Positions 49,821-58,227 of a stretch of 64,000 bases of DNA are shown here, in pieces (the first letter of the stretch is position 1; each line of letters opens with the position of its first letter). Under the pieces are notes generated by a model, which did no database searches, was not told the DNA's origin, and saw only the letters and a list, made by a program, of their open reading frames with translations. A program made the position numbers and the translations under genes. The stretch is from an uncultured Armatimonadota bacterium (GTDB lineage Bacteria; Armatimonadota; Fimbriimonadia; Fimbriimonadales; Fimbriimonadaceae): contig CAIYLG010000013.1 of the NCBI GenBank assembly GCA_903927025.1, positions 124,001 through 188,000 on the forward strand, in the 5' to 3' direction.

Positions 49821-50432
49821 ATGGGAGTTCGGATCAGATCTAAGTGGAAGTCGAAGTGGATCATCGTATCCGCGATCTGTGCCGCTCTACTCGCGCCTGA
49901 GCTAATCCCTTTCTTGACCCATCACCAAATTGCGCCAAGGACCTCGTCGTCTTTCGAGAATCGCCCCGTCAACAACGATCTGGTGAAGGCGGCTGCTGCG
50001 GGCAATCTGGAAATTGTCACCCACGATCTTGATGCTGGCGTTAGCCCGAACGCGGGCACCGGCGGCGAAGGAGGAGTGAGCGCGCTCTCGACAGCCGCCT
50101 CGGCAGGTCAACTGGAAGTCGCTAAACTCCTGCTTGATCGAGGTGCGGACGTGAATGCCGACGATTTCTGGGGAGGCAACGCTATCGTCTCACCAAGCCT
50201 GGACGGAGACGTTGAAATGGTGAAGCTGCTTCTGGCCCGTGGCGGCGACCCCAACATGGAAGATGACGGGGTTACCGCCCTTGACTATGCTTCCCACCAA
50301 CTCCTACTTCACGAAACAAAGGCACCTTTGCGCAACTACTCCCAAATCATTCGCCTCCTTAAGATGAACGGCGGCAAGACAATGATTATCTGTGATCCGC
50401 TCGTCAGCCTTGGATTCTTCCTTCCTTGGTAG
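49821..50432 (+). CDS. Membrane-anchored ankyrin repeat protein
   Basis: 203 residues. One hydrophobic N-terminal segment (WIIVSAICAALLAPELIPFL) is a signal or anchor. Ankyrin repeats start at VNNDLVKAAAAGNLEIVTH and continue with ALSTAASAGQLEVAKLLLDR and VEMVKLLLARGGDPNMEDDG. The last 17 residues (after KMNGGK) do not look like an ankyrin end, and the gene overlaps the converging 50304-51050 gene by 129 bases. TACAAT lies 8 bases before the ATG, so the mRNA may be leaderless. Confidence 0.78.
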   Translation: MGVRIRSKWKSKWIIVSAICAALLAPELIPFLTHHQIAPRTSSSFENRPVNNDLVKAAAAGNLEIVTHDLDAGVSPNAGTGGEGGVSALSTAASAGQLEVAKLLLDRGADVNADDFWGGNAIVSPSLDGDVEMVKLLLARGGDPNMEDDGVTALDYASHQLLLHETKAPLRNYSQIIRLLKMNGGKTMIICDPLVSLGFFLPW

Positions 50433-53484: not shown

Positions 53485-54150
53485 TCATCCCTGCCGACTA
53501 ACCATTTCTGCGATCCAGATTGGGGCGAAGGGTGAAGTGCATCCCTTTGGAGTCGGGTAATCCCTGAAGGCTCCGATTCTCTCGCCCATTTCGAGGGCGC
53601 GGGCACGAAACTCTGGGAAGTTAATGCCGATTTCGGCAAGGCAGTAGTTCATCGTCCACTGCACGACTGTAGGTGCAGCAGGCATTTCTTGATCGAGGCG
53701 ATCCAACAGCCCGGAAAGACTGAGGCCATCAGGCGTCTTGCAGATTCTCTCGGCAGTAAGGCTCCAACCCAGTCGAGCGGTGATCTCATGTGCCGATCTC
53801 ATCCATGGCTCGCGAAGGGCTTCTTTCTGCGAATGCTGCTTGACGACGTAACTGACGAACCAGTCCGCGAGCGGTACGCTTTCGATGCCCGCAACCAACT
53901 CCTCGACGTCGGCAAGGTCTAAGGCCTTTGGCTTCATCAGGAGCGTCGCAACCATTTGGGCGTCAAAATTCCCGCTGTTCCACAAGGTAACAACGAGTTC
54001 CGGGTCCGATCCGATCTCCTTAGCAATCCCGCGCAAATCGCCCATCTTTGCACCGAACTGGGCCTGCGAGACGCCATTTCGCTCGTTGATTTTCCGGCCC
54101 TTCTCAGTCCCAAGGCTCTGGAGCTTTTCCATTACTTCGTCGTAAGTCAT
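53485..54150 (-). CDS. DNA alkylation repair protein (AlkD-like)
   Basis: 221 residues of HEAT-like helical repeats. GAKMGDLRGIAKEIGSDPELVVTLW, NFDAQMVATLLMKP, VPLADWFVSYVVKQH and REPWMRSAHEITARLGW match the AlkD/AlkC-like fold, which lifts alkylated bases such as N3-methyladenine out of DNA. The gene begins 9 bases after the DUF1905 gene on the same strand. TAGAAT lies 6 bases before its ATG and the TAG is the stop codon of the DUF1905 gene, so it may have its own leaderless promoter. Confidence 0.85.
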   Translation of the reverse strand: MTYDEVMEKLQSLGTEKGRKINERNGVSQAQFGAKMGDLRGIAKEIGSDPELVVTLWNSGNFDAQMVATLLMKPKALDLADVEELVAGIESVPLADWFVSYVVKQHSQKEALREPWMRSAHEITARLGWSLTAERICKTPDGLSLSGLLDRLDQEMPAAPTVVQWTMNYCLAEIGINFPEFRARALEMGERIGAFRDYPTPKGCTSPFAPIWIAEMVSRQG

Positions 54151-54159
54151 CTGTAGATT

Positions 54160-54465
54160 CTATCCACTCAACGCTTCGTCACACGCTATCGTTAGGCGGA
54201 CTCCGACTAGGTCTCCGACTCCTACACTCTCAGCCTTCTGGACGAACTTTTTCACCGGGACGAGGTAGCCACCGTTCTTCGGGAATAGAGATGTTTCGTA
54301 ATCCGTTTCGCCGACGGTGACTCGAACAGGGATCACCCCCCAGCCGTAAGTGACTTGAGAAGAAATGGCCTTTATCTCAGCAGACTCTACCGGCGGAACC
54401 GGGACGAACACAAAGGGAGCCGGACCTCGCCACCAAATTGCCTCGCCCACGAACTCCAAAATCAT
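54160..54465 (-). CDS. DUF1905 domain protein
   Basis: 101 residues matching DUF1905 over the whole length: FVGEAIWWRGPAPFVFVPVP, GWGVIPVRVTVGETDYETSL, GGYLVPVKKFVQKAE. The fold is a small beta barrel; the function is unknown. TATAAT stands exactly 6 bases before ATG 54465, a clear leaderless promoter. An AlkD-like gene follows. Confidence 0.88.
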   Translation of the reverse strand: MILEFVGEAIWWRGPAPFVFVPVPPVESAEIKAISSQVTYGWGVIPVRVTVGETDYETSLFPKNGGYLVPVKKFVQKAESVGVGDLVGVRLTIACDEALSG

Positions 54466-54498: not shown

Positions 54499-55518
54499 TC
54501 ATCGGCGGGCAGCTAGAAGCTTCGCGACGTCTTGTTTTCTGCAGTTTTGTGCGCGAAGCAGGGGTGTGAATCCATTCTTGTCTCGCACTTCAGGGTTTGC
54601 ACCCAGCTTCAAAAGCATCTCTGCGATCTCAAATCGACCATGACGAGCCGCTTCGTGCAGGGGTGTTGAACGGTTGACACCGCCCCCGTGGTCGATGGAC
54701 GCTCCCGCCTGCACCAATTCCCGAACGACGGATGGGCCGTCAACGGGGAACGGTGAACCTGCAGCCCTGTAAAGCGGCGTGTGCCCACCGCGATCGGGCA
54801 CATCAGGGTCGACTCCCAACGATAGGATCAGCCTGACGACAGGAAGGCAGGCGTTGCCAGCCGCAAAGTGAAGCAGTGTTCTTCCACTGAACATTGCTTT
54901 CGCCAAATCTCGCTCATGGTTGATGCTCTCGAGAACGAAATCAATGGGTTGCACCCGGGCCGTTCGCATCATCCGCGCTAGTATCCCGACGAAAACGGCC
55001 GGCTGCAGAGCAAACCGGCGAGCGAGTGCGATGGCTTCGCTGTCGCTTCCGTTTACGAGTTCTTGGATCAATTGATCAAGGGCGCGCTGTCGGCACCATC
55101 GGTCATATAGCTCTGGGTGCTCCGGCGCGGCTTCTTCGCCTCCAACGAGGTATGCCGAGGTAACCCCAAAGAACTGCTCAAGCGCGTGCTGAAGGTCGGG
55201 ATCGCCGACCTTTGAACGAATCGTCTCGCGCATGTGGCGGAGCCATGCCATGCGTTGCCGAGCGCTGATTTCAAAGCGAGCGTGGGATTCTCGGAGACTT
55301 AGCCACCATCGGTACTGTGTCTGGTCTGGGTCCCCATCCAGAAACTGAATCAAAAACGCAGAGAACTCCTCCGTAGCACACCGGAAACTTTTCCCGGGAA
55401 ACAGGGGTTTCAGCACCTCATCGGTCGCGACGCGAGCATAGAAATCGCGGGCAAATTCAAGGCACCCGGATTCCCCTCCCAATATGTCCAGTAAGCACCG
55501 CTCGTCCCTCTTTGGCAT
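54499..55518 (-). CDS. Truncated haemoglobin-ankyrin fusion protein
   Basis: 339 residues from ATG 55518, preceded by GGAG. Residues 1-130 form a truncated globin: LEFARDFYARVATDEVLKPLF, then FSAFLIQFLDGD and WLSLRESHARFEISARQRMAWL, in which His79 is the proximal haem ligand in the usual ESHARF(R/E)I setting of bacterial group II/III globins. After a helical linker (about 135-190), ankyrin repeats run to the end (RTLLHFAAGNACLPVVRLIL, HTPLYRAAG, STPLHEAARHGRFEIAEML, GFTPLLRAQNC). It is soluble. A globin joined to ankyrin repeats could sense O2 or NO and bind a protein partner. Confidence 0.85.
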   Translation of the reverse strand: MPKRDERCLLDILGGESGCLEFARDFYARVATDEVLKPLFPGKSFRCATEEFSAFLIQFLDGDPDQTQYRWWLSLRESHARFEISARQRMAWLRHMRETIRSKVGDPDLQHALEQFFGVTSAYLVGGEEAAPEHPELYDRWCRQRALDQLIQELVNGSDSEAIALARRFALQPAVFVGILARMMRTARVQPIDFVLESINHERDLAKAMFSGRTLLHFAAGNACLPVVRLILSLGVDPDVPDRGGHTPLYRAAGSPFPVDGPSVVRELVQAGASIDHGGGVNRSTPLHEAARHGRFEIAEMLLKLGANPEVRDKNGFTPLLRAQNCRKQDVAKLLAARR

Positions 55519-55607
55519 TGCAGTCTCCATCCCGGGCGATCCCGGCTAATTCGCTAGATTCATTGTAACCGGAAGGTCTTTAAAGAATGGATTAGGTACA
55601 TGGAGCC

Positions 55608-55632: not shown

Positions 55633-55735
55633 CTGTCCAATTGGGCTGGTTGACTGACGGCAGCGGAGGTCGGCATGAACTGTCGTATCGGCTATCTCAC
55701 AGGCATTGCTGAAAGTAACAAGGAGTCCACCTCCT

Positions 55736-57865
55736 TTACTTCCCTGCTTTTCGAATTCGAAACTTCACGCGAAGAGTCCCTCTGATGTGCTCATCTGTAT
55801 TGATATTGGCAACGGTGTCCGCGCTGTATACGGTTGCGGAACCTTCTCCGCTGATCGTGACTGGGAACGTCCATTTGCCGTCTGTGAAAGAGCTTGAGTC
55901 GATTTCGACTCGCTGTCCAGTATCTCCAGTTATCGTCTGAACAACATCGCCAGAGTGATCTCCTCCCTTGAAGTGCTTCGTCCACTTAATGTCGCCAGTG
56001 CCAGCGGCGATGACTGTGGCAATCTTCTTCGTTGCGTCAATCGCGATCATAAAACTGGCAACTTTGCCGCCCGTGTTGAGAATTTTGATGTCCCCGCCGC
56101 CATTCCACGTCTGCTCTACGGTCCCTCCGCTTGTCTGGTCCATCACCCCCCAATGACCCACCGTCGCATCCTTAGGGTCCAGCACGAACGTGGTCCATGG
56201 GTCGACGACGTGCACTCCGGCAAGGGCGGCGACCACCTTCGCTCGCTCTGCCTCAGGAATGTACTTAAGCTGTTCTGCGGTGAGAGTTGTTTGGATATTC
56301 GGTTTGGGAAGTTCGACGACCTGTGCATTCTCCGCATTGAAGAAATGGAAGATCGTTTCGTGGATAACCCCGTTGACGCCTTCTGCGTTGTACTCCAGTG
56401 AAATGTCAGCAGTCGCTTTGGCATTGACCCAGTCTCTGACAACCAAGATGTATTTGGTGCCGGTCTTCAGTTTCATGCCGGCCATGAAATCCGTCAATAC
56501 ACCAAAGGTGCCTTCGCCTCCACCGCGAATGGCCGAAAACGCGCCCATACCGAGTTGCAGGTTTGAATCTGCCGACGGGCGAACAAGCTGAGGAGTTACG
56601 TAAACCAAATACTTCTTGTCCACTGGAGCAGCAAAGTCTTCCGCAATCGCCTGAAACTGCGGTGTGCCCTCGATGGTCACCTTTGCCACTCCTTCAGAGT
56701 CCGTGACAACACGACTGACGTCGCCTTGTCCATCGACCGTTCGAAACGTCTGCTGTGTTGCCAGTGTCGGCGTTCGAAAATCCCAAGCCGTTTCAACTCC
56801 AGCCAAATCACCTTGTGGCATTTCAGGCGAGATGCCCAAGGCGTTAAAGTAGGCGAGATTGCTGTTCATGAAATCTCGAGCTTTGTCCTTGTCATAGTAA
56901 AAGTGAGCCGTGATCGTGCGCTTCTCGCCAGCATCATCGGCATGCCAGGACTTCGTACGAACGAGGGGTGCTCCCGGGGCTTCCATTTCCATATCCCCTC
57001 GCAGGCACGCGTAGCTGGCAACCACCTTGACGACTGCCAAGATCGGATTGAGCTTAGATAAGGCCCCGGTTAGCTTGCCCTCCTCAAGTCCCTCGACCCA
57101 AGCCTCAACTTTGGGCAAGTAGCCTGCAATGCTGACGACATAGCTATTTGTAGCGAAACCCTCCGGGAGCAGGTCAACTGCGGACGTGGCGGTACCGCTC
57201 AGAATGTCGGGAACAGACTGTTGAAGCGTCTCAAGTGCATGGCGGCCGGCAAGCCTCTTGCGAAGGGGAATCTCCAACTCTTCCGTCATCACTCGCATGA
57301 CGAGGAAGGATTGGATTGCATCTAAGCTGGTGGCGTCCGAAATGGTGATGTCGTTCACATTCGCGTGGGCGTTGCCCAAGTCCCGAATGAAGGAAGTGAT
57401 CAGTCTGGTCTCACGATTAGCCGATGTTCGGCCGTCCTGGAGCCAACCGTAAACATACGGCTTGCAAGAAGTTGTCAGACCAATACTCTTCGCCAATTTA
57501 TCTAGGCTGGCTACCAGATCGGCAAGGTTGGTCCACTGACCACCATGATAGAGATCTGAGAATTCGCGCATCTCCGATTCCGATACATAGAGATTGTTGT
57601 TCGGGTCCGTGCTCGCTGCAAGAGATGCCGCAGCGCCATGGCTGGTGAAGAAAGAATCTGGCTGAACCTTGAACCCGCAAATCTTGACAGCCTCAGAGAG
57701 GAGCTCGTCTCCATGTTCGCGTCGATCCTGCAGTCGAGTTGTCAGGATTGATAGCCGCTGAAGCTTCTCCGTATCATCTGGCGCTTGCGGCGAAGCCTTT
57801 GCTCCCCCCACAAGTGCGGCACACAAAGTTAAACCAACAGCAAAACTACTTGAGCGAAAACTCAT
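55736..57865 (-). CDS. Large secreted protein of unknown family
   Basis: 709 residues from ATG 57865, signal peptide ending GGAKA. TAATGT sits 7 bases before this ATG, so ATG 57901 in the ORF is unlikely. The first half is mostly helical (NLADLVASLDKLAKSIG, FLVMRVMTEELEIPLRKRL), the second half beta-rich (LVRPSADSNLQLGMGAF, VNAKATADISLEYNAEG, VHVVDPWTTFVLDPKDAT). No recognised domain, no membrane segment. It may be a surface or envelope protein. Confidence 0.7.
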   Translation of the reverse strand: MSFRSSSFAVGLTLCAALVGGAKASPQAPDDTEKLQRLSILTTRLQDRREHGDELLSEAVKICGFKVQPDSFFTSHGAAASLAASTDPNNNLYVSESEMREFSDLYHGGQWTNLADLVASLDKLAKSIGLTTSCKPYVYGWLQDGRTSANRETRLITSFIRDLGNAHANVNDITISDATSLDAIQSFLVMRVMTEELEIPLRKRLAGRHALETLQQSVPDILSGTATSAVDLLPEGFATNSYVVSIAGYLPKVEAWVEGLEEGKLTGALSKLNPILAVVKVVASYACLRGDMEMEAPGAPLVRTKSWHADDAGEKRTITAHFYYDKDKARDFMNSNLAYFNALGISPEMPQGDLAGVETAWDFRTPTLATQQTFRTVDGQGDVSRVVTDSEGVAKVTIEGTPQFQAIAEDFAAPVDKKYLVYVTPQLVRPSADSNLQLGMGAFSAIRGGGEGTFGVLTDFMAGMKLKTGTKYILVVRDWVNAKATADISLEYNAEGVNGVIHETIFHFFNAENAQVVELPKPNIQTTLTAEQLKYIPEAERAKVVAALAGVHVVDPWTTFVLDPKDATVGHWGVMDQTSGGTVEQTWNGGGDIKILNTGGKVASFMIAIDATKKIATVIAAGTGDIKWTKHFKGGDHSGDVVQTITGDTGQRVEIDSSSFTDGKWTFPVTISGEGSATVYSADTVANINTDEHIRGTLRVKFRIRKAGK

Positions 57866-58227
57866 GCGAAGCACATTACCCCCTGATCCTGAGTCAATCA
57901 CGCCGGCACGGACTTTTCGCGCAGGGGTGTGACACGGTACCCCTCGGGCACCTAGAGCTTGAACGAGGTTCCAGAGCTGAATCTATCAGCCACCTCGGGG
58001 AATTGAACATCAACAATCTCGCGTGGACGGTGCCGATGGAACTCACTCGAATCGTGACGCTTTTCGAAATACATTCTGGCCCCCGCTAAAATCCGGGGTT
58101 AACCGTTTGGAATCGCCAAGGTCGCGACGAGTTCAAATGAATGGCTGTAGTAGTAGGTCGCGAGTCGCTCCGGTCCACCGTGACGCCAAGGCAGACCTTG
58201 CGAATTTGTCCCACGCTCCAGGTATCT
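57866..58227. other. Divergent intergenic region
   Basis: 362 bases between the unknown secreted protein gene (minus) and the serine hydrolase gene (plus). It contains the TAATGT box of the minus-strand gene (57873-57878) and a small CCCCG/CGGGG hairpin. Nothing else is visible. Confidence 0.5.

Follow-up and report, generated by a model that had tools for sequence, protein, structure and literature searches.

The window, that is, the whole stretch of 64,000 nucleotides from an Armatimonadota bacterium analysed here, carries on its minus strand an open reading frame encoding a truncated haemoglobin (trHb) domain followed by ankyrin repeats (Table 1). The frame opens with an ATG, runs from 55530 to 54499 and contains no internal stop. 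The initial annotation found the gene but placed its start at 55518, which corresponds to a second ATG (Met5). It also described the chain as soluble, and this fits: neither a signal peptide nor a membrane helix is visible by eye in the sequence. The fusion gene is the sole one of its kind in the source genome (98.4% complete), where the next-best matches to the protein cover its ankyrin part only. A second PF01152 gene, encoding a stand-alone globin, is located on another contig. Within the window, a 203-residue ORF (49821-50432, plus strand), 4 kb away from the fusion gene, has an N-terminal hydrophobic stretch and ankyrin repeats, without a globin.

Table 1. Features of the globin-ankyrin gene, its product and its surroundings (window coordinates; residue numbers refer to the 343-residue protein)
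Feature	Position	Strand	Basis or remark
Globin-ankyrin fusion gene	54499..55530	-	ORF call, Pfam, AlphaFold2 model; 343 residues
Group II truncated haemoglobin domain, residues ~13-130	55141..55494	-	PF01152, profile and fold matches
Tyr31, B10, distal pocket	55438..55440	-	Alignment to 2bmm/5d1v; Tyr in 30 of 31 sequences
Phe44, CD1	55399..55401	-	Alignment to 2bmm/5d1v; invariant, n=31
Arg74-Trp75-Trp76 motif, just ahead of the proximal helix	55303..55311	-	Alignment; specific to the sub-family
His83, F8, putative proximal haem ligand	55282..55284	-	Invariant in every aligned fused and stand-alone sequence
Trp96, G8, group II hallmark	55243..55245	-	Alignment; invariant, n=31
Middle helical segment, residues ~138-205	54916..55119	-	Alignment of relatives and model; Trp145 and Asp152 invariant
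Four ankyrin repeats, residues ~213-342	54505..54894	-	Pfam and fold match to 1n0r
DUF1905 gene	54160..54465	-	33 bases downstream of the fusion gene; ORF and Pfam
DNA alkylation repair enzyme family gene (PF08713)	53485..54150	-	9 bases past the DUF1905 gene; ORF and Pfam
Terminator-like hairpin, end of the upstream gene	55720..55736	-	Pattern match only

The fusion gene may share a transcript with the DUF1905 and PF08713 genes, in the source genome only. On the other side, the hairpin found by pattern matching suggests that the fusion gene has its own transcript start. The upstream gene (55736-57901, minus strand) encodes a 721-residue protein, probably secreted, in which no Pfam family scores above the cut-off. 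Clustering of the neighbourhoods of the window and of 32 related loci, described below, gave no conserved neighbour gene that could be named as an operon partner. A single protein family, carboxypeptidase-regulatory/TonB-like by look, recurs in at least three of these loci, at varying positions. DUF1905, PF08713 and the upstream gene each turn up beside fewer than three of the related fusion genes. Thus, the operon is local and tells little about function. A partner of the ankyrin arm would then be encoded elsewhere.

The N-terminal part matches Bac_globin (PF01152) over residues 14-114 (E-value 3.6e-13, 50.2 bits; the Pfam cut-off for this family is 21 bits). A profile derived from 31 globin parts gave 5d1v (1.9e-25), 2bmm (8.8e-24) and 1ngk (9.3e-22) as top matches, all of group II. 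Because the fold search with the whole model had returned ankyrins throughout, the globin was folded and searched separately. Its model (pLDDT 80.3) recovered trHbs, with group II leading (4uur, 1ngk, 2bkm, 1ux8, 4uzv, 2bmm and 5d1v, at query TM-scores of 0.75-0.81; 0.74-0.81 over the best fold matches). By both sequence and fold, the domain is a group II trHb of the 2/2 type having His F8, Trp G8 and Tyr B10, where positions are named according to established globin usage. In group II globins, bound O2 is held tightly by Tyr B10 and Trp G8.

In the alignment with 2bmm and 5d1v, position E7 is occupied by Ala52, invariant among the 31 sequences. Judged from its residues, the haem pocket is complete, with Tyr31, Phe44, Ala52, His83 and Trp96. 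The overall identity across the 31 sequences is 38-56%, and these pocket residues are invariant or nearly so. Lys47 and Cys51 are also invariant (n=31) and particular to this sub-family. The Arg74-Trp75-Trp76 motif is near-invariant in the sub-family and absent from stand-alone trHbs, where Trp-Trp and the residue next to it are replaced by Gly-His-Pro. It is also absent from a sister type of fusion, type B, described below. Sequence profile, fold match and residue conservation therefore agree with the initial view of a complete globin with its proximal His, assigned here to His83 at F8. Structure prediction, which could have shown the lack of a globin fold, matched trHbs instead. Fold alone does not prove haem uptake, and the globin part could be imagined as a mere structural domain of an ankyrin adaptor, with no haem bound. 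We consider this very improbable in view of the invariance of His83, Trp96 and Phe44, and the near-invariance of Tyr31, in distant relatives; His F8 and Trp G8 are retained in the sister types too.

The whole chain, modeled with AlphaFold2 using 30 relatives as the alignment, reached a mean pLDDT of 92.7 and a pTM of 0.88. The residues between the end of the globin (~130) and the first canonical ankyrin repeat (~213) are conserved and helical and do not form a plain linker. VIA-align matches to ankyrin chains extend back to residues ~148-175, so that this middle segment may consist of degenerate ankyrin repeats. The C-terminal part is recognized by Pfam as Ank (PF00023, E-value 1.3e-22, 79 bits) and Ank_2 (3.5e-19, 69.6 bits). 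Residues 215-343 of the model superimpose on the solved ankyrin structure 1n0r with a Z-score of 23.2 and an rmsd of 1.5 over 124 aligned residues. With several 33-residue repeats arranged in a solenoid, the arm is an ankyrin repeat protein. The single frame, the Pfam matches in both halves and the close match to a solved ankyrin confirm that the repeats are joined to the globin in one chain, as first proposed.

The globin and the ankyrin arm are about equally conserved, with 30% of the columns at 90% or more in each. Positions 13 and 14 of ankyrin repeats face the ligand and are the usual carriers of specificity. These inner-face positions are Asn (88%) and Glu (71%) in repeat 2, Arg (96%) and Arg (82%) in repeat 3, and Asn (92%) and Cys (96%) in repeat 4. 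The protein of the window has itself lost the Asn-Glu pair of repeat 2. Such conservation would argue for one kept partner. The case is only moderate because, averaged over the repeats, the binding face is hardly more conserved than the outer positions (mean entropy 1.47 versus 1.56 bits, not a clear difference). The conserved inner-face residues could instead bind the protein's own globin domain.

Search for the same domain order in other genomes, as had been proposed with the initial annotation, found it in dozens of them. Full-length homologues with the same order and 48-56% identity occur in independent assemblies. Within the genus, the same full-length protein is present in 7 of 20 genomes, the window's own included. 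Querying species genomes with the single protein gave no match; querying them with the alignment gave 32 loci, 30 of which have globin and ankyrin repeats in one frame. According to the labels of these metagenome-assembled genomes (MAGs), most loci belong to Acidobacteriota, and the others to Armatimonadota/Fimbriimonadaceae, Eremiobacterota, Chloroflexi and Rhodanobacteraceae. We distrust the Rhodanobacteraceae label, that of locus L047: some genomes are common to the class sample taken around this locus and the one centred on the Terriglobia record L023. In two MAGs (L047 and L049), the fusion genes are frameshifted or cut short, reflecting either assembly errors or decay. In plasmid records, partial matches only were obtained, none spanning 80% of the query.

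The sample of an acidobacterial class drawn around L047 comprised 399 genomes, of which 22 have matches with E-values no higher than 2.5e-36, and the matching frames span 329-502 residues; one frame of 166 residues among the 22 is the frameshifted L047 gene itself. Stand-alone globins of the same sample are well separated from the fusions (best E-value 4.2e-22). Among the matches of this sample that were fetched, the ankyrin arm lies in the same frame in 14 of 15, the frameshifted L047 being the exception. The 49 globins of the window's own type, type A, form one clade (SH-aLRT 98) in a tree of globins, and no stand-alone globin falls inside. The fusion is thus conserved well beyond the source genome, in dozens of bacteria that are mostly uncultured. 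As the source genome is a draft in 66 contigs, an assembly artefact or the chance join of two genes might be suspected. This explanation is refuted by the single open frame and by dozens of independently assembled relatives that have the domains in this order, and it retains a negligible probability.

Two sister types were observed. Type B (L012-L016, L053-L056, L060 and L067) is shorter, ~316-330 residues, and has no middle segment. In its globin, B10 is His and a Cys-Arg-His-Ala-His motif is present; its ankyrin arm is akin to that of type A. Among the genomes with type B is a single-contig genome of 5.2 Mb from the window's genus (G007), which may belong to a cultured strain. Type C (L059 and L061; 477-513 residues) has a different globin and a longer ankyrin part. 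In a sample of 291 genomes of the phylum Armatimonadota, we counted 11 of type A, 11 of type B (one of them truncated where its contig ends) and 2 of type C, with any PF01152 found in 74 genomes. No genome of this sample has both A and B, the numbers being too small for a test. In a tree of ankyrin arms, which rests on few columns and has unsettled bootstrap values, the arms of type A form one clade (96/90), those of type B another (100/98), and the two clades are jointly separated from 22 other ankyrin proteins (92/77). The frameshifted L047 and the cut L067 are counted there as fused arms, and all fused arms group together. This grouping indicates either a common origin of the A and B arms or the re-use of the arm with a second globin; the tree does not choose. 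Two further arrangements were noted. Tandem PF01152 pairs, in ORFs of ~290-336 residues, occur in L065 (G026), G075, G064, G163 and G035, in relatives of the same family and order. At L071 (1590-3169), a globin frame and an ankyrin frame overlap in different reading frames, resembling a type C fusion with a frameshift.

The fold, Tyr B10, His F8 and Trp G8 are common to the fusion and to the group II trHbs of Mycobacterium tuberculosis (HbO, 1ngk), Thermobifida fusca (2bmm) and Chloroflexus aurantiacus (5d1v). The solved group II trHbs are single-domain proteins, whereas the fusion adds the middle segment, the ankyrin repeats and the Arg-Trp-Trp motif before the F helix. Another chimera that includes a truncated globin is NR2-2/2HbN from Heterosigma akashiwo (PMC3820574); it is eukaryotic and its globin is joined to an enzyme, nitrate reductase, while the window's fusion has a docking scaffold. 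Globin-coupled sensors and flavohaemoglobins likewise combine an N-terminal globin with a further C-terminal domain, but their globins are of the 3/3 type and their C-terminal domains are signalling or reductase domains (PMC1457004). The present protein is not a globin-coupled sensor, its globin being 2/2 group II and followed in the Pfam scan by ankyrin domains only. Nor is it a flavohaemoglobin, since a FAD/NAD reductase domain is absent from the same scan. By stating that globins usually occur as single domains or are joined to enzymes, the initial annotation passed over the globin-coupled sensors (PMC1457004). Ankyrin motif and globin also share one chain in the NO synthase KnNOS2 of Klebsormidium nitens (PMC8728061), but there the globin is of the M family and the protein is a large algal synthase.

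Bacterial ankyrin proteins are known to dock on haem enzymes, as in the pairs AnkB-KatB and Cj1386-KatA (PMC10294975, PMC11442138). These catalase helpers act on haem enzymes without a globin domain having been reported in them. Since Cj1386 is a haem-binding protein that supplies KatA with haem (PMC11442138), the globin-like domain might similarly hold haem and pass it to a client haem enzyme bound by the ankyrin arm. A conceivable client in the source genome is the product of a 746-residue frame in which two peroxidase domains occur, which would fit a catalase-peroxidase. We nevertheless think a haem carrier improbable: a pocket of the globin kind, whose residues stabilise a ligand, is poorly suited to giving haem away, and no globin is fused to Cj1386. 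For the source genome, transfer to a monofunctional catalase, the kind served by these helpers, was rejected, as PF00199 was not found there (98.4% completeness; the control was positive in 5 genomes).

We favour a targeted haem protein, with a probability of roughly 0.45, as the most likely of the readings considered. The protein would be a cytosolic haemoglobin whose ankyrin arm brings O2, NO or peroxide chemistry to a conserved partner. The N-terminal group II globin would bind haem b via His83, and the pocket formed by Tyr B10 and Trp G8 would hold O2 or react with NO or peroxide. The middle helical segment would fix the orientation of the C-terminal ankyrin arm, which would dock on a conserved cytosolic partner. 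The gas or redox chemistry of the globin may thereby be delivered to the partner or protect it. Alternatively, the partner, for instance a reductase, may supply electrons to the globin. As a precedent, the trHb of a nitrate reductase chimera acts on NO, reductases have been seen as electron donors of trHbs, and truncated globins are tied to NO dioxygenation, in some cases with a reductase as partner (PMC3820574). The docking of AnkB and Cj1386 on haem enzymes is a further precedent. The domains, the fold, the pocket residues, the conservation of the fusion and the conserved ankyrin residues are observed; we infer that haem and its ligands are bound, that a partner exists and of what kind it is, and that docking serves catalysis rather than signalling. 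In view of the patchy spread (22 of 399 genomes in one class sample), this partner would have to be widespread, or the function one that cells can do without.

The second reading, possible but less likely, is the gas-regulated docking switch proposed in the initial annotation. Binding of O2, NO or CO to the haem would shift the proximal side, then the middle segment and the ankyrin arm, turning partner binding on or off. The Arg-Trp-Trp motif is found only in proteins that have the middle segment with Trp145 and Asp152, and not in type B or stand-alone globins; from this co-occurrence, the motif and Trp145/Asp152 may touch. Residues 71-90, around the proximal helix, are modeled with a confidence of 78-81 in the whole protein versus 56-70 in the globin alone, with different alignments in the two cases, a hint that the proximal-helix face packs against the rest of the protein. 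Engineered LOV2-DARPin fusions (7tbo, 7tbq), in which a sensor domain likewise sits on an ankyrin scaffold, show that such a design can be built, although they are man-made, respond to light rather than gas and use a different sensor fold. On the other hand, known globin sensors are 3/3 and not truncated globins (PMC1457004), and type B keeps the ankyrin arm without the motif and without the middle segment. The switch is plausible, but a targeted haem enzyme accounts for this anatomy as well.

A literature search for truncated haemoglobin or globin with ankyrin, in which subscription papers were mostly outside coverage, found no description of the fusion; domain databases may already list a globin-ankyrin architecture. 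The globin survey of Vinogradov and co-workers describes chimeras among the 3/3 types only (PMC1457004). A conserved truncated-globin chimera with a scaffold widens this picture of chimeric globins. Were the haem-ligand state of the truncated globin to govern binding by the ankyrin arm, which we find rather doubtful, the protein would be a natural gas-controlled docking protein and a new signalling output for trHbs, in at least two bacterial phyla. The function of group II trHbs is still disputed, and most, being lone domains, give no hint of a partner. In the present protein, the attached docking arm offers such a hint as to what the globin works with.
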